From Candidatus Schekmanbacteria bacterium (GTDB taxonomy: Bacteria > CSSED10-310 > JACPHN01), in NCBI GenBank assembly GCA_016188575.1, contig JACPHN010000006.1:1-64000 (forward strand): a stretch of DNA of 64,000 nt. The letters run 5' to 3'. Each line of letters opens with the position of its first letter. The first letter of the stretch is position 1. The notes beneath the pieces were generated by a model. It had not been told where the DNA came from. It searched no databases and saw nothing but the letters and a program-made list of their open reading frames with translations. Made by a program: the position numbers and the translations under genes. Below are positions 21,266-29,902 of the stretch, piece by piece.

Positions 21266-23596
21266 CTACAGCTTCGTCGGCGCGACCTCCTTCATGGCAA
21301 AGGCCTCGATGATATCGCCGACCTTGAGGTCTTGGAAGCCTTCGAAACCGATCCCGCATTCATATCCGGCCAGGACTTCACGGGCGTCGTTCTTGAAGCG
21401 CCGGAGCGACGCGATCTTGCCGGTGTGCACGACGCGACCGTCGCGGACAAGCCGGGCGGTGCTGGCGCGACGCACCAACCCGGAGAGGACGATGCATCCA
21501 GCGATGACGCCGATGCGGGGGACTCTGAACGTCTGTCGCACCTCGGCGCGCCCCAGGCTTTCCTCCTCGAAGGTAGGGCTGAGCAGCCCGGAGAGGGCGT
21601 TCTTGAGCTCCTCGATCAGCTCATAGATGATGGAATAGAGTTTGATTTCGACATTTTCTTTGGCCGCCAGGGTGGCGGCGCTCGGAATCGGTCGAATGCC
21701 GAAGCCGATCACGATAGCGCCGGTGGCCGAAGCGAGGAGGACATCGCTGTCGCTGACCGGCCCGACGGCGCCGTGGAGAATCTTGATGTTGATTTTCTCG
21801 GTCCCGATGCGCAACAAGGCGTCGGAAACCGCCTCGAGGGAACCCTGGACATCGGTCTTGAGAATGATCGTGAGCTGCTTCACCTCATCGTCGCCAACCT
21901 GAAACTGCAGGCCCTGCTGCCCGCCAGGGACGCTGGCGGCGGCAAGCTCGGCCTTGGCCCGGCGATCTTCGACGAGCTTGCGACCATCCTGGTCGGCAGT
22001 GATGACCTCAAGCACCTCACCGGCCTGGGGGACATCGGCGAAGCCGATGACTTCCACGGGGGCAGCCGGTCCCGCCTCCGTTACCTCGCGCCCCTGATCG
22101 TCGAACATGGCGCGCACCCGTCCGGAGACGGTACCGACAACGAAGGGGCTGCCGATGTGCAGCGTGCCGCGTTGCATGAGCACGGTGCCGACGGGGCCGC
22201 GACCGCGGTCGATGCGACTTTCGACGACGACGCCGCGTCCCACGCCTTCAGGGTCAGCGCTGAGCTCAAGGAGCTCGGCCTCAAGCAGGACCATCTCGAG
22301 AAGCTCGTCGATACCGGTTCCGTTCTTGGCGGAACAGGGAACGACCACGGTCTTGCCTCCCCAGGCCTCAGGGACGAGATCGTGCTGGGCGAGGTCCTGA
22401 TAGATGCGGTTGATGTCGGCGCCGGGCAAGTCGATCTTGTTGAGAGCGACGACAATGGGAACGGCGGCTGCCTTGGCGTGGTCGATGGCCTCGACCGTCT
22501 GCGGCATCACGCCGTCGGTGGCGGCGACGACGAGGATCACGAGATCGGTGATACTGGCGCCGCGGGCCCGCATCGCCGTGAAGGCCTCGTGACCCGGGGT
22601 ATCCAGAAACACGATCTTTCCCGAGTGGGTGTCGACCGAATAGGCGCCGATGTGCTGGGTGATGCCGCCGGCCTCCCCGGCCGCGACGCTCGTCTTGCGA
22701 ATGCGGTCGAGCAGGGAGGTCTTGCCGTGGTCGACGTGTCCCATGACGGTGACGACGGGAGCACGCTCGACTCGTGGCGCGCCTTCGCGCGCGCTGCTCG
22801 TGATCTTGGAAACGGTGGCGGCAGTGACCCGCTCCGTCGCGGAGACAGTGAGGCCAAGCTCCTCGGCGACCGCTTTCAGTGCTTCGCTGGCCACGCTCTG
22901 GTTGACCGTGGCCATGATTCCGCGCATGATGAGCCGCTTGCACAGCTCGGGAGCGCTGATACCGAAGAGCTCCGCCGCCTCGCGCACGAGCATGGGGCCG
23001 GCGAGCTGAACCTTGCCGTCAGCGGGCGGTGTCGGCACGTGCCGCTGCTCGGTTTCGGTGGGGGCTGGGCGGCGCTTCCGGAAGCGCTTCGAGGGGCGGT
23101 TGCGGGGGAAAAACTCGCGCCCCGCCTCCTCCTCTCCGCGGGAGCTTCCCCGGTAACCTCGCGTGACCTGCGACTCGCCGGAAGGTTTCCGCGGCGCCGC
23201 GGCAGTTTCCGGCCGGGAGCGCTCAACGACGCGAGGAGCTGCGGGCGCGGACGATGAAGCCGGTCGCGGCCGAGCAACCACGGGAGCAGGTGGAGGGGTA
23301 ACAGGTGGAGCAACGACGGGCTCAGGCGCAGCCTGCCGTTTGCGCGCCCTGACATTAGGCGGTGGCGCGACTTCGGGGCGCTCCTCCGCCACCTCCGCGG
23401 GCTCCGACCGCGGCGGCCGTGTAGTAACCTTATCTGGGGTGCGCGGTTTCTCCGCGAAAACCTGCTCGGCCGCGGAGCGCTCCACGTAGCTGAGATGGCT
23501 CTTTACATCGACACCTGCAGCGGCCAGACGTTCGACGACGTCCTTACTCGACAACCCCAATCTCTTCGCAACCTCGTAGACGCGTACCCGGCTCAC
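21266..23596 (-). CDS. infB: Translation initiation factor IF-2
   Basis: GTPase that places initiator tRNA on the 30S subunit, 776 aa. N-terminal IF2-N domain ([20 protein letters not shown]), a long Pro/Ala/Arg-rich linker (about 50-190), a second IF2-N-like helix ([20 protein letters not shown]), the G domain (G1 [19 protein letters not shown]3 DTPGHEAF, G4 NKIDLPGAD), and beta-barrel and C-terminal domains ending [19 protein letters not shown]. The minus-strand start at 23596 is 73 bases after nusA. The YlxR and ribosomal L7Ae-like genes often found between nusA and infB are absent. Confidence 0.98.
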
Positions 23597-23669
23597 TGGA
23601 AGTACCTCCCTTCAGCACCCTCATCCCGATCCCGCGGCGACTCTCCATATGGCCAGAACCCGCGCCCTC

Positions 23670-24974
23670 TCAGCTCCGCACCTCGCTTGCGCCGTTCCCG
23701 GCGGCGGCGTCGACCTGGCGGCGCAACGCCTGCTCGGCGGCGTGGATCAGCGCTTCCGCCTCGACCTCGGCGACTCCGGTCACCCGGGCCAGCTCCGCCA
23801 CATCCATCTTGACGATCTCGTCGCAGCTCTGGATGTGTCCATGCTGAAGTGCCTCTCTGGTCCGGCTGTCCAGGCCCTGGAGGGCGTCGATGGTAGTCTG
23901 CATCTCGTCACCATCGTCGGCGGCACCCGAGACCGCGGCCGCGACACCGCCTTCGGCACCGATGTCGATGTGCCAGCCGGTCAGCTTGGCAGCCAGGCGA
24001 ACATTTTGTCCGCGTTTTCCGATGGCAAGGCTGAGCTGCGACTCGTCGACGACCACTTCGGCCCGCCGTTCCGCCTCATTGAGCGCGATCCGGCTGATGT
24101 GCGCGGGGCTGAGCGCGTTGGCGATAAAGTCCTTGGGATTTTCGGAAAAAGGAATAATATCTATGTTTTCACCCCGGAGCTCGCGGACAACCGCCTGCAC
24201 GCGACTGCCCTTCATGCCGACGCAAGCGCCGACGGGATCCACGTTGGCGTCGTGCGAGACGACGGAAATCTTGCCGCGGCCACCCGGCTCGCGTACCGAG
24301 CCCAGGATTTCGACGATACCCTCGTAGACTTCGGGTACCTCGAGCTCAAACAGTCGTCGCAGTAGACCCGCGTGTGTCCTCGACAAAATGATCTGATGTC
24401 CCTGGGCGGATTGCCGCACTTCCAGGATGAAGGCCCGGATGCGGTCGCCGCGGCGAAAGTGATCGCGCGGACCGAGCTCGCGGGAGGGCAAGAGCGCCTC
24501 GCACCGCCCGAGATCGACGTAGACGTTGCCGCGATCGACGCGCGCAACGACGCCATTGATCAGCTCGCCTTGGCGATCGCGGTACTTCTCGAACACCAGC
24601 TCGCGCTCGGCATCGCGGACCCGCTGGAGAATGACCTGTTTGGCGGTCTGCGCGGCGATGCGGCCGAGTCCCTCGATTTCCTTGCGAATTTCGATCTCGT
24701 CGCCGATGGCGATGTCCTCGCCGACCAGCGTGCGCGCGTCCTCCAGGCTGATCTGCGTCATCGCGTTCTCGACCGCCGCAACGACCGACTTGAGCGCGTA
24801 AACTTCGATCTCTCCACTATCGCGACTGAGGATGGCCTCGAGATTCTCTCCCGTGCCGAGCCGGCGGCGCGACGCGGAGATAACCGCGGCCTCGACGGCC
24901 TCGATGATGATTTCCCGCGAAATGCCGCGCTCGCGCTCAATCTGGTCAATAACCTGCAGGAGTTCTCGATTCAT
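23670..24974 (-). CDS. nusA: Transcription termination/antitermination factor NusA
   Basis: 434 aa. RNA-polymerase-binding N-terminal domain (MNRELLQVIDQIERERGISR), S1 domain (GELINGVVARVDRGNVYVDL), two KH domains (DPVGACVGMKGSRVQAVVRE; LSLAIGKRGQNVRLAAKLTG) and a single helix-hairpin-helix-like C-terminal region (TREALQHGHIQSCDEIVKMD). It is shorter than the E. coli protein, which has two acidic repeat domains. Located 17 bases downstream of rimP. Confidence 0.97.
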   Translation of the reverse strand: MNRELLQVIDQIERERGISREIIIEAVEAAVISASRRRLGTGENLEAILSRDSGEIEVYALKSVVAAVENAMTQISLEDARTLVGEDIAIGDEIEIRKEIEGLGRIAAQTAKQVILQRVRDAERELVFEKYRDRQGELINGVVARVDRGNVYVDLGRCEALLPSRELGPRDHFRRGDRIRAFILEVRQSAQGHQIILSRTHAGLLRRLFELEVPEVYEGIVEILGSVREPGGRGKISVVSHDANVDPVGACVGMKGSRVQAVVRELRGENIDIIPFSENPKDFIANALSPAHISRIALNEAERRAEVVVDESQLSLAIGKRGQNVRLAAKLTGWHIDIGAEGGVAAAVSGAADDGDEMQTTIDALQGLDSRTREALQHGHIQSCDEIVKMDVAELARVTGVAEVEAEALIHAAEQALRRQVDAAAGNGASEVRS

Positions 24975-24991
24975 TCCGTTGCTTCCGTTTC

Positions 24992-25498
24992 TTATGTCGA
25001 CTGGCGCTTCTTGGGGCGAAACATGAGATCAGGTTCGAGGTTGGCCCGCGCGATGTCGTCGAAAGGGATCTCCACCTGGACGCCTTCGCGATCCGCCAGC
25101 GTGAGCAGCACGCGGCCTTCATGGACTGCCGCGATCGTGCCCGTGAAGCTCCTTGCCCCGTTTATAGGCGTGTGCGCCTTGATCTTGGCGCGCTCGCCGA
25201 GAAAGCGCTGGAAGTGCTCTGGCTTCGTCAGCGGGCGGGCGACACCCGGCGAAGACACCTCCAAGTAGTAGCGCCCCGCAATCACGTCGGCCGCGTCCAG
25301 CAGGAGACTGAGCTCCTCGCTTACGCGCTCGCAATCATCCAGGCCGATTCGCCCGCCGACGCGATCCAGGTACACCGTGAGGAAGCGGCGCCCCGATTCG
25401 ACGCGAATCTTCACGTCGAGCGCCTGCATATCGGTACCCGCGAGCGCTTGCTCGACGAGCTCGGTCACCTTATTTTCGACATCGGTTGGGCCAGGCAC
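24992..25498 (-). CDS. rimP: Ribosome maturation factor RimP
   Basis: Assists assembly of the 30S subunit. 168 aa from GTG 25498, which has AGGTGG upstream; a GTG ten codons earlier (25528) is less likely. Both domains are visible: VRVESGRRFLTVYLDRVGG and LEVSSPGVARPLTKPEHFQR (the conserved SSPG(V/L)xRPL signature), then the C-terminal SH3-like part (FTGTIAAVHEGRVLLTLADR). First gene of the operon that runs to pnp. Confidence 0.95.
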   Translation of the reverse strand: MPGPTDVENKVTELVEQALAGTDMQALDVKIRVESGRRFLTVYLDRVGGRIGLDDCERVSEELSLLLDAADVIAGRYYLEVSSPGVARPLTKPEHFQRFLGERAKIKAHTPINGARSFTGTIAAVHEGRVLLTLADREGVQVEIPFDDIARANLEPDLMFRPKKRQST

Positions 25499-25560
25499 AG
25501 TTCCACCTGCAAAAAGCGGACTTCGCACACATCCAGGGATGTATGCGTATTCGCTGCCGA

Positions 25561-25682: not shown

Positions 25683-26666
25683 CTAGCGCTGCCGGGCGTA
25701 CTCCGGAGACTCCAGCACGTCTTCGATGAGCTCCGATCGGCTCATGTGCCCCGAGCTCAGACTCCCGAGGTAGTGCCGCAGCCCGGACGCGTCGGGGTCC
25801 CTTCTGAGCAAGGCGCGATATACCGAAATCACGTAGTACTCGTCAGAGCCCAGCAGCCGGCCCACCAAGCGCTCACGCCCATCGCGCCCTCGCGCCGCCT
25901 CCATCGCCTCGCGCATCTCCTCGCGGCTGGGCCGGCGGTTCAATACGTTGCGGTAGCAGTCCTCCACAAACTCTTCCCCGTATCCGTGTCGCGGGCCCTC
26001 GATGATCACCCCCGGTTCTGGGTCGTCGCTGTGCCCCCGCCGGCCAACCGTGAAGCGCACCGTGTCGACCGCCCGCTCACTCGGCGGGATGATCTGAATG
26101 CGTTCGACTGTCTGCCGCTGGCGACCTTCCGGGACTTGCTCGTAGTCCTCATCGCTCTCATGGCGGAGGTGAAAGTCCTTGCGCGACGTGGCGTAGATGG
26201 TGAGCTCCTCGGTGCCCGAAGGTCCCGTCACCCGCAAATCGTAGTCGCCGCTCGGGATGCGATATGAGCGATCCGCGCGTACGAAGTTGTCCGGGTCCCA
26301 GCGGTTCGGAAACAGGCGCACGATGCTGCCATCGGTGGAGCGATCGTAGATGGTCACGTAGGCGTCGCGCGACGCGCGGAAGTAGACCCGAATCGGTTCA
26401 CCGATGCGATAGCGCGCGGGCTGCCTCTTGTTCACCCAGATCTTGACGTCGAAGCGGTCGGGGACGATGACAATTCCGAGGGCCGAGGGGTTGCTCGCAT
26501 CGATCCTTGCCTCCGGCTCTTCTCCGGGTTCCTCATCGTCCGCCCCTGCGGCCACCGGCATCAGCACCGCACCGATCAGACAGCCGAAGGCCAGGATGAC
26601 AGGCACCGTCACGCTCTCGAAGAAATGAGTCCATCGGGAGATCCAGAAAAAAGATGTGCATTTCAT
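25683..26666 (-). CDS. DUF4384 - DUF4214 secreted protein
   Basis: 327 aa, last gene of the amidase/actin/CPBP operon. N-terminal signal peptide or anchor (VPVILAFGCLIGAVLMPVAA). The DUF4384 domain spans about 60-175 (VKIWVNKRQPARYRIGEPIR; RDAYVTIYDRSTDGSIVRLF; PNRWDPDNFVRADRSYRIPS). The C-terminal third (about 235-327) holds two DUF4214-type repeats (CYRNVLNRRPSREEMREAME and VYRALLRRDPDASGLRHYLG), found in surface and S-layer-associated proteins. ATG 26666 has CGGAGG; the much longer open frame extending upstream overlaps the CPBP gene and is not coding. Function unknown; an envelope role is inferred. Confidence 0.85.
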   Translation of the reverse strand: MKCTSFFWISRWTHFFESVTVPVILAFGCLIGAVLMPVAAGADDEEPGEEPEARIDASNPSALGIVIVPDRFDVKIWVNKRQPARYRIGEPIRVYFRASRDAYVTIYDRSTDGSIVRLFPNRWDPDNFVRADRSYRIPSGDYDLRVTGPSGTEELTIYATSRKDFHLRHESDEDYEQVPEGRQRQTVERIQIIPPSERAVDTVRFTVGRRGHSDDPEPGVIIEGPRHGYGEEFVEDCYRNVLNRRPSREEMREAMEAARGRDGRERLVGRLLGSDEYYVISVYRALLRRDPDASGLRHYLGSLSSGHMSRSELIEDVLESPEYARQR

Positions 26667-26686
26667 GATCAAACCTCCGGTTAGGA

Positions 26687-27571
26687 TCAGCCGCCGCTCA
26701 CGCCCAACTGTCCGCTCAGCGGTAGCAGCACGAGCAACTGGACACCGTCGATGAGGCCATGCGCGATCATGGGTGCCGCCAGGGAGCGCGTAGCGCTGCG
26801 CAGCTTGCCCAGACCGAGTGAGTAAAGGAACGCGCCCACGACATTGGCGAGCGCGCCGTGTCCGAGGTGGGCAACGGCAAAGATCGTCGATGTTGGCACA
26901 TTTCCCAGTCCCTTCTGCAGCACGCCGCGAAAGAAGAGCTCCTCGCCGACTGCCGCCGCGACCGTAATGAGCGCGAGCTCGAGGAGCGAGCGCTGCCGCA
27001 ACCACGGCAGCAGCTGTGTCACATCCTCGTTGGCAGTATAACCAACGCCCGCCGCAAAGCGTTGACTCGCCGCGACGAGCAGCCAACCGCCGAGCTCCAT
27101 CACGAGCAGCAGGGCCGCACCGGTGGCAAGACCGCGCCCCACGATTGCAGCGATATCCCGCCGCCCGCAGCCCATCTCTGGCCCGAGGGCGGCAGCGCCG
27201 CCGCCCGCGAGCCCGTAATACCAGATCGCGAGGGCGCTGAGCGCCACCTGTAGCCCGACGATATCGGCCATGCTTCCGGAACGTGGTGGCGACAGGCCGG
27301 CAAATGCCGCGCCGAGCGGCGAGAGCAGGAGAAACAGGGCGGCGCTGATCGCCACCAGAAAGGCGGCGTGCGCCGGCTCTGCCGTGTCGATGCCATAGTG
27401 CGCGCCGAGCCACCGCGCCAGTGGGCGCCAACCCGCGGCCGCAACCAGTAACAGCGCGCCTGGCAGGATCGCTATGGGCCATGCCGCCAATGGCAGCGAC
27501 GCGGCAGCCCATGCCAGGCCCATCGCGGCAGCCCCGCCGAGCAGCAGGCGCGCATGCAGGTTGCCAGCCAC
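26687..27571 (-). CDS. CPBP-family intramembrane glutamic protease
   Basis: 294 aa polytopic inner-membrane protein with about eight hydrophobic segments. The Abi/CPBP active-site signature is present: EExxxR in VGEELFFRGVLQKGL (E210, E211, R215) and the downstream His in FAVAHLGHGALANVVGAF. Homologues include the CAAX prenyl protease Rce1 and bacterial proteins that cleave membrane substrates or act as bacteriocin immunity. GTG 27571 directly follows the TGA of the MamK-like gene, which implies translational coupling and a shared function. Substrate unknown. Confidence 0.88.
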   Translation of the reverse strand: MAGNLHARLLLGGAAAMGLAWAAASLPLAAWPIAILPGALLLVAAAGWRPLARWLGAHYGIDTAEPAHAAFLVAISAALFLLLSPLGAAFAGLSPPRSGSMADIVGLQVALSALAIWYYGLAGGGAAALGPEMGCGRRDIAAIVGRGLATGAALLLVMELGGWLLVAASQRFAAGVGYTANEDVTQLLPWLRQRSLLELALITVAAAVGEELFFRGVLQKGLGNVPTSTIFAVAHLGHGALANVVGAFLYSLGLGKLRSATRSLAAPMIAHGLIDGVQLLVLLPLSGQLGVSGG

Positions 27572-28621
27572 TCACAAGGTCCGCAGGCGGTCCCAGTCAT
27601 CCGCAGGGGTGTCGCGCGCGATCGCCAGCGCCCCGTCGGCACCCGCGTACAGCGGATCCTCGACCGTCGACACGTGTCCCCCGCCGAGATCGGCGAGGTC
27701 CGCCTCCAACCACTGCCGGAGCCCGCGGATCTGACTGCCGCCACCAGCGAGCACCACGTTCTGCCGCACCTCAACCTGAAACTCGGGATCGAACGAGGCA
27801 ATCAGGGTGCGCAGCTCTTCCCTGAGGAAGGGGAGGATGGCGCTGCACGCCCGCGACAGCTCGTCGGTGATGTCGTGGGAGGTGGGGCGTCCACCGACGG
27901 GGATCGAAACGATGATCTTGTCCTGAGGTGAGCCGTCGACGCGGACAAAGGCATGCTCCTCCTTCCACCGTTGCACCATGGTCTCGGTAAACTGCGCACT
28001 GGGGTACCGTTCCGTCAGCATCTCAAAGAGCTGCTGGTCGATGAAGTCGCCGGCCTGCACCAGCGTCTTCTGGTCTTCCGCGGCCGGCACCGTTCCGTGC
28101 ATGATGCACAGGTCGATCGTACCGGCGCCGATGTCGACTACCAGGGTATTGAACAGCATCTCCAGACCATACGCGATGGTGAACGGTTCGCTGACGATCA
28201 GGCACGCGTCCGCGACGTCGGAAACCGCTTCGCGGATCAGTTGCTTGTTGAAGGTGCTGGCTTCCGCGGGAGCACCGACGACGGCGTAGACGCTCTGTCC
28301 AGGTTCCGGTTTTGCCATGGAAATGAGGTGCTTGACCAGCGTCCTGGCGGCTTCTTCGTCGCGGTCGGTGCCCGTCTTGATCACTCCGGCCGCGAGTGGG
28401 CGAAAGACGTCCAGGGCGAGTCGATGTTTGAGACACGCCTCGCCGAACACGATGTCGCGCTTGAGGAATTTCTTGGCGATAATGTCCTTGGGCCAGCCGA
28501 CGAGACTGCGCTCCCACTCGCGGACGCCGTTGGAAGCGGACACCGCGCTTCTTGACGTCCCGAGATCGACGCCGATGTATAGGATATTGTCGGATTCTTT
28601 TTTTCTTTGGGCTACCAACAC
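27572..28621 (-). CDS. MamK-like bacterial actin
   Basis: 349 aa, the size of MamK and MreB. Actin-fold ATPase motifs: phosphate 1 YIGVDLGTSRSAVSAS (16-30), connect/catalytic region LIVSEPFTIAYGLEML with E145, phosphate 2 NTLVVDIGAGTIDLCI with D163, adenosine motif VVLAGGGSQIRGL (289-301). The closest match I know is MamK, the magnetosome-chain filament: shared stretches include the start, VGWPKDII, the ISDRD/TDRDEE-type segment, HGTVPAAEDQ and the EDPLYAGADGAL tail; E145 and D163 sit two residues from MamK E143 and D161. No membrane-binding helix is obvious, also as in MamK. Start GTG 28621 behind GGAGGGG. No magnetosome gene accompanies it. A filament-forming, envelope-related scaffold is inferred. 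Confidence 0.85.
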   Translation of the reverse strand: MLVAQRKKESDNILYIGVDLGTSRSAVSASNGVREWERSLVGWPKDIIAKKFLKRDIVFGEACLKHRLALDVFRPLAAGVIKTGTDRDEEAARTLVKHLISMAKPEPGQSVYAVVGAPAEASTFNKQLIREAVSDVADACLIVSEPFTIAYGLEMLFNTLVVDIGAGTIDLCIMHGTVPAAEDQKTLVQAGDFIDQQLFEMLTERYPSAQFTETMVQRWKEEHAFVRVDGSPQDKIIVSIPVGGRPTSHDITDELSRACSAILPFLREELRTLIASFDPEFQVEVRQNVVLAGGGSQIRGLRQWLEADLADLGGGHVSTVEDPLYAGADGALAIARDTPADDWDRLRTL

Positions 28622-28647
28622 GTCCCCTCCTCAGAATTTTCGACCGA

Positions 28648-29820
28648 TCACGTGCGGCCTTCAACGTAATGCCTCACGCCTTCGAAAACAAGATCCGCGA
28701 TGCGGTTCCGATACGAGTCGTCGGCGAGCCGCAGTTCCTCGGCAGGGTCGTTGAGGTAGGAAACCTCGGTCAGCACACTCGGCATTTTCGCCCCCATGAG
28801 CACGACGAACGGCGCCCGCTTGATGCCCAGGTCGCGCAGGATACCGCCGTGGAGCCCATTCATGCCCGCGTATAGGTGGTCGTGAATTCCGGAAGCGAAG
28901 GTATAGCTCTCTTCCTGCTTGAGGGTGGTCATCATGCGGTCGACGAGACCGGCAAAATCGGCGATGGTGCCCTCGCCGACAGCGTTTTCGCGCGCTGCCG
29001 TCGCCTCGGCCTCCTTGGTCGTGGGGAAACCCAACAGGAAGGTCTCGACGCCGCGCTGGGAGTTGTTGGGGAAGAAATTGATGTGAATGCTCAGGAAAAG
29101 ATCCGCCTCGAGCGCGTTGGCGCGACGGGTGCGCTCGCGCAGGCCGAGCGAGCTGTCGTCGTCGCGGGTCAGGAACACCTGGAGTCGAAGCTCCGCGGCA
29201 ATGCGATCGCGCAGACGCCTGGCAATGGTGAGCGTGATATCCTTTTCGAGCAGACGCAGCGTGGTCCCGACGGTGCCGGGATCGCGCCCGCCGTGGCCGG
29301 GGTCAATGACGATGCGATTGACGCGCAAGTGGAACAGCTCTGACAACGACATCCTCTTCTTGCCGGAGAGGAAAGCCAGAGCGCGTTCGGCTTGCGTGGC
29401 ATCGACGCCGGTGTCGTGGCGAGGCGCGAGCACCGGTCCCGCCGCCTCGCGGGAAAGCGCGTCCCAATCCTCCGCCGTGGCCGGCGCCGGGGAGCGTGCC
29501 GAGGAGGCCGCGCGGGCGGCGAGCGGCGGTGATTGCCTGGTCAGGGCAAGGTCGGAGTAGCCGAAGACCGACGCCGTAGGAAATACGGCGCGAGCGCCGA
29601 CGAGAAAGAACGAAGCCACGAGCGCCGAGATGGCGCCGACGAGCGACCCGCGCGCGGCTCTTCCGCGCGCCGGTGGCGCGGCCGCGGGATGCGCGTGGGC
29701 CTCGGCGGCCTCCCGCCCGCGAGCACGCGGCACCACTCGGCTCGGCTGCATGTTATTCTGGACAAGGTCGCTGATCAGCCTCCGCCGGAGATCTCCTGAC
29801 CGCGATGCCTCAGCGCTCAC
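28648..29820 (-). CDS. Membrane-anchored N-acetylmuramoyl-L-alanine amidase (Amidase_3, AmiC type)
   Basis: 390 aa. Zinc amidase that cuts the bond between N-acetylmuramate and L-Ala. One transmembrane helix (about 59-80, LVGAISALVASFFLVGARAV) follows a ~57-residue cytoplasmic, Arg/Ala-rich N-terminus, so the enzyme is tethered to the inner membrane with its catalytic domain outside, unlike soluble AmiA/B/C. Catalytic domain about 165-390: H176 in VIDPGHGGRDPG, E192 in LLEKDITL, H246 in LFLSIHINFF, catalytic Glu E352 in VLTEVSYLND. GTG 29820 has AAGGAG 8 bases upstream. First gene of the four-gene operon with the MamK-like actin, which suggests spatially controlled wall cleavage. Confidence 0.92.
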   Translation of the reverse strand: MSAEASRSGDLRRRLISDLVQNNMQPSRVVPRARGREAAEAHAHPAAAPPARGRAARGSLVGAISALVASFFLVGARAVFPTASVFGYSDLALTRQSPPLAARAASSARSPAPATAEDWDALSREAAGPVLAPRHDTGVDATQAERALAFLSGKKRMSLSELFHLRVNRIVIDPGHGGRDPGTVGTTLRLLEKDITLTIARRLRDRIAAELRLQVFLTRDDDSSLGLRERTRRANALEADLFLSIHINFFPNNSQRGVETFLLGFPTTKEAEATAARENAVGEGTIADFAGLVDRMMTTLKQEESYTFASGIHDHLYAGMNGLHGGILRDLGIKRAPFVVLMGAKMPSVLTEVSYLNDPAEELRLADDSYRNRIADLVFEGVRHYVEGRT

Positions 29821-29873
29821 CCGCTAGTCTCCTTCTCCTTTGTGCGCCCCGAGCTCAGTTGGCCCTGCCCTGG

Positions 29874-29902
29874 ATTGTAGTATGCGCCAGGCGTCATAAC
29901 AA
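29874..29902 (-). promoter_or_regulatory. Sigma70-type promoter of the amidase/actin operon
   Basis: On the minus strand TTGTTA (29902-29897), 17 bases, TACAAT (29879-29874), 53 bases before the amidase start codon. Four of six and five of six consensus matches with ideal spacing. Confidence 0.65.

Follow-up and report, generated by a model that had tools for sequence, protein, structure and literature searches.

The conserved core of the locus described here is, on sequence grounds, a two-gene module that pairs a MamK-family actin with a single-pass inner-membrane amidase. A conserved peptide at the N-terminus of the amidase probably docks this wall enzyme onto a MamK-family filament, with the pair kept across phyla, the peptide lying consistently on the predicted cytoplasmic side of the membrane, and the same peptide recurring on unrelated proteins encoded next to related actins.

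Results and Discussion

Gene Layout of the Locus

The window (the whole stretch of DNA analyzed, 64,000 nucleotides from a Candidatus Schekmanbacteria bacterium) contains the four open reading frames given in the preliminary description, at the places and spacings claimed and all on the minus strand (table 1): the order is amidase, actin, CPBP, and DUF4384/DUF4214, with gaps of 26, 0, and 20 bp. Judged by its spacing, the CPBP gene is part of the same transcription unit as the amidase–actin pair. The one strong promoter proposed at 29874–29902 was ruled out as operon evidence: the match (29902–29874, minus strand) agrees with the consensus at 9 of 12 positions, which is within chance expectation, as shuffled sequence yields 0.7 such sites on average. 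The four genes are followed on the same strand by the rimP-nusA-infB translation operon (window 21266–25528).

Table 1. Features of the amidase–actin locus; positions are those of the window.
Feature	Position	Strand	Description
Amidase gene (Amidase_3)	28648–29820	minus	390 aa; PF01520, E 4e-44
Candidate actin-docking peptide, amidase residues 12–27, RRRLISDLVQNNMQPS	29740–29787	minus	Position and invariant Asn (Asn23) in alignment
Predicted transmembrane helix of the amidase, about residues 58–79	29584–29649	minus	AF2 helix; hydrophobic after basic stretch in homologues
MamK-family actin gene	27572–28621	minus	349 aa; NF040964, 413.6 bits (cut-off 400)
CPBP/Rce1-like intramembrane protease gene	26687–27571	minus	294 aa; PF02517, E 6e-15
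DUF4384 + DUF4214 protein gene, product probably secreted	25683–26666	minus	327 aa; PF14326, E 3e-23; PF13946, E 3e-15

A MamK-Family Actin outside a Detected Magnetosome Island

The proposal that the actin is nearer to MamK than to MreB is borne out by family models and by comparison with solved structures. The window actin passes the NCBIfam MamK model with 413.6 bits and fails both MreB models, TIGR00904 (51.6 bits, cut-off 365.75) and PRK13927 (64.2 bits, cut-off 293); it passes the broad Pfam cut-off of PF06723 (67.8 vs. 27 bits) and lies far under the cut-off for FtsA. Among solved structures, phmmer ranks the MamK entries 5ljv and 5jyg best (E 9e-86 for 5ljv), followed by BeeR 8r2n (2e-40) and MreB 1jce (3e-11). 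The BeeR model NF053558 gives 205 bits against a cut-off of 530, and about 13 residues precede the first strand of the window actin, as compared with the N-terminal extension of 30–50 aa that characterizes BeeR. Residues E145 and D163 align with the MamK active-site residues E143 and D161 at an offset of 2, as previously claimed, and an AF2 model of one member of the actin family aligns to MamK 5ljv with a TMt of 0.96. The organism's own MreB is encoded by a separate gene of the genome (9.2 Mb, 93.8% complete).

A genome-wide check for mam genes with two family models, MamB and MamQ, returned a best MamB match of 184.8 bits (cut-off 350) and no match to MamQ, so that with these two models the description stands: the actin is of the MamK family, and no magnetosome island was detected to which it could belong. 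Phylogenetic analysis places the window actin with the amidase-linked MamK-family actins (support 99/98 in our careful tree), separate from two magnetosome MamK clades that are supported at 100/100 each. It therefore belongs to magnetosome MamK neither by its clade nor by a MamB or MamQ over cut-off in its genome, and we conclude from these comparisons that the window actin is a genuine MamK-family actin and not a magnetosome protein.

A Wall Amidase with a Predicted Membrane Anchor

The Pfam match of the amidase (table 1), its intact ligands, and its AmiA-like fold place it in the Amidase_3 family: the His-Glu-His zinc ligands and the catalytic Glu (H176, E192, H246, and E352) are invariant in an alignment of 41 actin-linked homologues, and an AF2 model of the window amidase matches Escherichia coli AmiA 8c2o (Foldseek E 2e-18, TMt 0.85). 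The same order of a 16-residue motif, a basic stretch, a hydrophobic helix, and the amidase domain is found in all 65 scorable amidases (full-length, with a readable PGHG motif), and their mean net charge is +4.4 before the transmembrane helix and −0.6 after it. In the window amidase, AF2 models a helix at residues 58–79 with a pLDDT of about 70–85. This predicted helix and the charge bias in the homologues agree with the earlier claim of an inner membrane anchor, and the predicted topology is that of a cytoplasmic N-terminal peptide, one transmembrane helix, and an AmiA-like domain in the periplasm.

Distribution of the Amidase–Actin Pair

A scan of the genomes of 84,980 species gave at least 80 related loci among the matches listed, most of them from organisms that are not described as magnetotactic (Planctomycetota, Nitrospirota, Acidobacteriota, marine group II archaea, and others). 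With the window actin as query, matches were found in 46 of 345 genomes in the phylum of the Nitrospirota genome, in 41 of 396 in that of the Acidobacteriota genome, and in 94 of 246 in that of the planctomycete genome; in the window's own phylum, only two of eight genomes encode the actin. Two further groups should be noted among these loci. The marine group II archaea (Poseidonia-type, L069–L116) encode MamK-family actins with a conserved zinc-ribbon-like protein of ∼340 aa upstream, which is without the peptide motif, and in one planctomycete-type genome (G071; L127 and L218–L220), MamK-related actins occur as four paralogues, of which one is placed nearest to BeeR by the tree.

The amidase gene lies directly upstream of the actin gene in at least nine loci among the 80 matches listed, the two genes overlapping or lying up to about 140 bp apart. 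Among the survey loci, the arrangement recurs in 75 of 104, where re-fetched copies from the first set are counted as well. The 76 tree rows with an Amidase_3 gene directly upstream come from Nitrospirota, Acidobacteriota, one Rhodothermales genome, and the window. The amidase-linked actins form one clade (support 99 in the large tree, and 99/98, as above, in the careful tree), which takes in the window and one sequence from the same phylum whose contig ends upstream. For neither the CPBP nor the DUF4384 protein of the window was a homologue found in the 80 related loci among the matches listed, and in a genome of the same phylum the actin gene is directly followed by a different gene. The four-gene module of the preliminary description is not upheld by these data: of the envelope module proposed there, what stands is the actin tied to a membrane-anchored amidase, as a pair kept across phyla, and what falls is the inclusion of the CPBP and DUF4384 genes, which by their distribution are local neighbors of the pair without conserved linkage.

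A gene for a receiver-SPOR protein comes next after the actin in 22 Nitrospirota loci. These proteins (e.g., L130:2536–3765, L149:2558–3691, and those of about 20 other Nitrospirota loci) appear to consist of a receiver domain, a transmembrane segment, and a C-terminal SPOR domain; Pfam identified the SPOR domain in four of them and a receiver domain over the cut-off in three. SPOR domains recognize amidase-processed (stripped) glycan (PMC6895207), and the receiver-SPOR protein is likely a third component in the Nitrospirota.

A 16-Residue Peptide Shared with Unrelated Upstream Proteins

The N-terminal peptide of the amidases can be written approximately as [KR]xx[IL]LRG[VA][YV]E[DE]N[LV]. It is basic and amphipathic and lies some 10–25 residues ahead of the transmembrane helix, and its Asn is present in 65 of 65 scorable amidases and invariant in the alignment of 41. 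A search matrix trained on nine amidase N-termini only was run on 1004 other open reading frames from the 81 loci listed: 23 of the top 30 are the gene just upstream of an actin, a class that makes up 62 of the 1004 (hypergeometric P 3e-24, a value that ignores the relatedness of the loci). In the Planctomycetota, the peptide-bearing upstream proteins are coiled-coil-like or receiver-domain proteins, and the motif is mostly found near their C-terminus.

A three-frame translation of the 450 nt upstream of the actin (threshold 10 bits), with downstream and reverse-strand windows as controls, detected the peptide in 42 of 70 loci of Planctomycetota and others versus 4 of 267 control windows, and in 15 of 20 Nitrospirota/Desulfamplus loci of the deep-branching MamK clade versus none of 80 controls. 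By the same test, it was found in none of 21 marine archaea loci and in none of 10 loci of alphaproteobacterial-type MamK, a group including gammaproteobacterial and magnetococcal loci. One Nitrospirota locus of the deep-branching group is a magnetosome island, with MamM over its cut-off and relatives of MamB, MamP, MamA, and MamQ below theirs; the other members of the Nitrospirota/Desulfamplus group were counted as such from their position in the tree and the downstream genes they have in common. A Methanoperedens contig with a MamK-family actin encodes a downstream protein of 203 aa (L081:11057–11668) with a motif-like C-terminus, KNNMYRDLMDQNIRLK.

Amidases without actin linkage score at most 8.9 bits, and linked ones with a complete N-terminus at least 16.3; in 40 actin-less genomes, every amidase match begins at query residue 73 or later. 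We ruled out that the peptide is a general feature of Amidase_3, with other amidases from the same or from actin-less genomes reaching the same maximum of 8.9 bits. An artefact of overlapping reading frames is unlikely, because the amidase peptide lies ∼1 kb from the actin start and the two genes are unlinked in a second genome of the window's phylum (G002).

In G002, the actin and the amidase are encoded on different contigs; the amidase is 43% identical to that of the window and keeps the peptide (RKALVRDLVRQNRDQL, 14.5 bits) despite being unlinked from the actin. The window peptide itself (RRRLISDLVQNNMQPS) is divergent and comes to 9.8 bits when its own sequence is left out of the matrix, a value reached by 16 of 5000 shuffles of the N-terminus of the window amidase; by itself it is a weak candidate, supported by where it lies, by its copy of the invariant Asn, and by its relative in G002. 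Across the family, the conserved cytoplasmic peptide, which the preliminary description had missed, is in our reading the best evidence for a physical link between amidase and actin.

Structural Models

In the AF2 model of the window amidase alone, the peptide region has a pLDDT of about 54–81. We also modeled a fusion, the natural read-through of a planctomycete partner C-terminus into its own actin, with stops read as Ser as a modeling device only; here the peptide forms a helix with a pLDDT of 90–95, joined by a linker with a pLDDT of 48–64 to an actin with a MamK-like fold (TMt 0.96, 5ljv). The support of these models for docking, judged by pLDDT and fold match, is weak, as the two are of different proteins and a helix on its own may also reach high values. 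The actin positions that track the presence of the peptide fall, by sequence position, mainly in domain IIB, a pattern confounded by ancestry, and the scan of such positions gave no signal at the IA–IIA groove used by arcadin-2, with the same confounding. Showing no groove signal and being inseparable from ancestry, these positions were dropped as a map of the binding site.

Proposed Mechanism and Alternatives

We infer binding, filament formation, and control of cleavage from the above. The cytoplasmic N-terminal helix of the amidase would carry a short peptide by which the enzyme docks onto the actin filament, the transmembrane helix would span the inner membrane, and the AmiA/B/C-type zinc amidase would lie in the periplasm. 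The filament, as a track on the cytoplasmic side, would thereby place, cluster, or gate the cleavage of peptidoglycan. A precedent for the mode of action is given by the C-terminal 17-residue helix of arcadin-2, which binds crenactin as ParR binds ParM (PMC5173319). Both of these are short helices from a gene neighbor that bind an actin, an analogy of working and not a claim of homology; they differ from the peptide described here, which is part of a transmembrane wall hydrolase and is found again on several proteins unrelated to it. Since it recurs near the C-terminus of unrelated upstream-encoded proteins, the peptide may be a reusable cargo-docking signal of the MamK-related actin family. 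We give even chances to the wider proposal of a general docking code, in which one helical peptide on unrelated proteins would link MamK-family filaments to the wall amidase or to coiled-coil-type proteins in several bacterial lineages, and to a candidate magnetosome adaptor in magnetotactic Nitrospirota and Desulfamplus.

A small amphipathic helix could instead serve dimerization or membrane binding, and the best surviving alternative is a membrane-proximal or dimerization helix that makes no contact with the actin, the genes being merely coexpressed. The basic, amphipathic character of the amidase peptide, its short distance from the membrane, and the coiled-coil-like appearance of the planctomycete partners would all suit such a helix; we nevertheless regard it as unlikely, given that partners of unrelated type, encoded beside MamK-family actins, have in common a 16-mer whose Asn hardly varies and which mostly lies close to a free terminus, that the peptide is missing from other amidases, and that it persists in G002 where the two genes are unlinked. 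Somewhat more doubtful is a reversed direction of control, with the peptide lowering or capping actin polymerization by arcadin-2-like sequestering and the amidase regulating the actin: the C-terminal helix of arcadin-2 does depolymerize crenactin (PMC5173319), but an enzyme that spans the membrane once and keeps its catalytic residues would suggest the wall as the output, to which the downstream SPOR protein of many Nitrospirota loci may also point. An envelope-remodeling module of all four genes, in which the CPBP protease and the DUF4384 protein would also have functional roles, would fit the gaps of 0 and 20 bp seen in the window but is highly improbable in view of the absence of both neighbors from the 80 related loci (among the matches listed) and the different downstream gene in the same-phylum genome.

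Relationship to Magnetosome Filaments and Other Known Systems

The window actin resembles MamK (NF040964, PDB 5ljv) in passing the family cut-off and in the fold of a family member, and differs in its separate clade, in a genome without MamB or MamQ over their cut-offs, and in its partner, which is a wall amidase in place of MamJ and MamE. BeeR of the Verrucomicrobiota (PDB 8r2n) is likewise a MamK-related actin of non-magnetotactic bacteria (PMC11929497), whereas the window actin remains far below the BeeR cut-off (205 vs. 530 bits) and BeeR forms an outlying branch in the large tree. The division amidases AmiA, AmiB, and AmiC share the zinc amidase fold (AmiA 8c2o being the best match) and the zinc ligands with the window amidase, which differs from them by its predicted cytoplasmic peptide and transmembrane anchor. 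The literature searched contains no such actin link for AmiA, AmiB, or AmiC and no link of MamK to an amidase; in the text covered by that search, the reports on BeeR (PMC11929497) and on the coiled-coil/actin network of strain RS-1 (PMC12748827) describe neither this peptide nor the amidase pairing.

The amidase clade, the deep-branching MamK, the alphaproteobacterial-type MamK, and the planctomycete actins form a radiation without a resolved branching order. Approximately unbiased (AU) tests of two groupings, namely a single origin of magnetosome MamK and a clade uniting the alphaproteobacterial-type MamK with the amidase-linked actins, gave p values of 0.14 and 0.15, and neither was rejected. 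On this tree, the earlier suggestion that magnetosome filaments were recruited from such a setting is no more than possible.

Orthologues of MamJ have not been identified outside the magnetospirilla, and less similar or unrelated substitutes are expected there (PMC10653835). In magnetotactic Nitrospirota and Desulfamplus, the peptide-bearing protein whose gene lies immediately upstream of that for MamK is a candidate for an adaptor replacing MamJ. In a Nitrospirota magnetosome island (L310:10091–10606), and also in L063 and L187–L201, this position is taken by a small uncharacterized protein that ends in the peptide found on the amidases (e.g., KKSFLKSIVMENVELR), and that is a candidate MamK adaptor.

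Significance

In the MreB–RodZ and FtsA–FtsN systems, a cytoplasmic actin-like filament is coupled via a single-pass membrane protein to wall enzymes; the system proposed here differs in that the membrane protein would itself be the hydrolase and the actin is of the MamK type. To our knowledge, MreB and FtsA are the main bacterial actins for which a connection to wall enzymes has been described. If true, our reading would add a third, MamK-type actin–wall link, with the hydrolase itself serving as the membrane anchor. The peptide common to the partner proteins would then offer a direct, mutable handle on the role of MamK-like actins in non-magnetotactic bacteria, and on the replacement of MamJ as the magnetosome-to-MamK adaptor outside the magnetospirilla.
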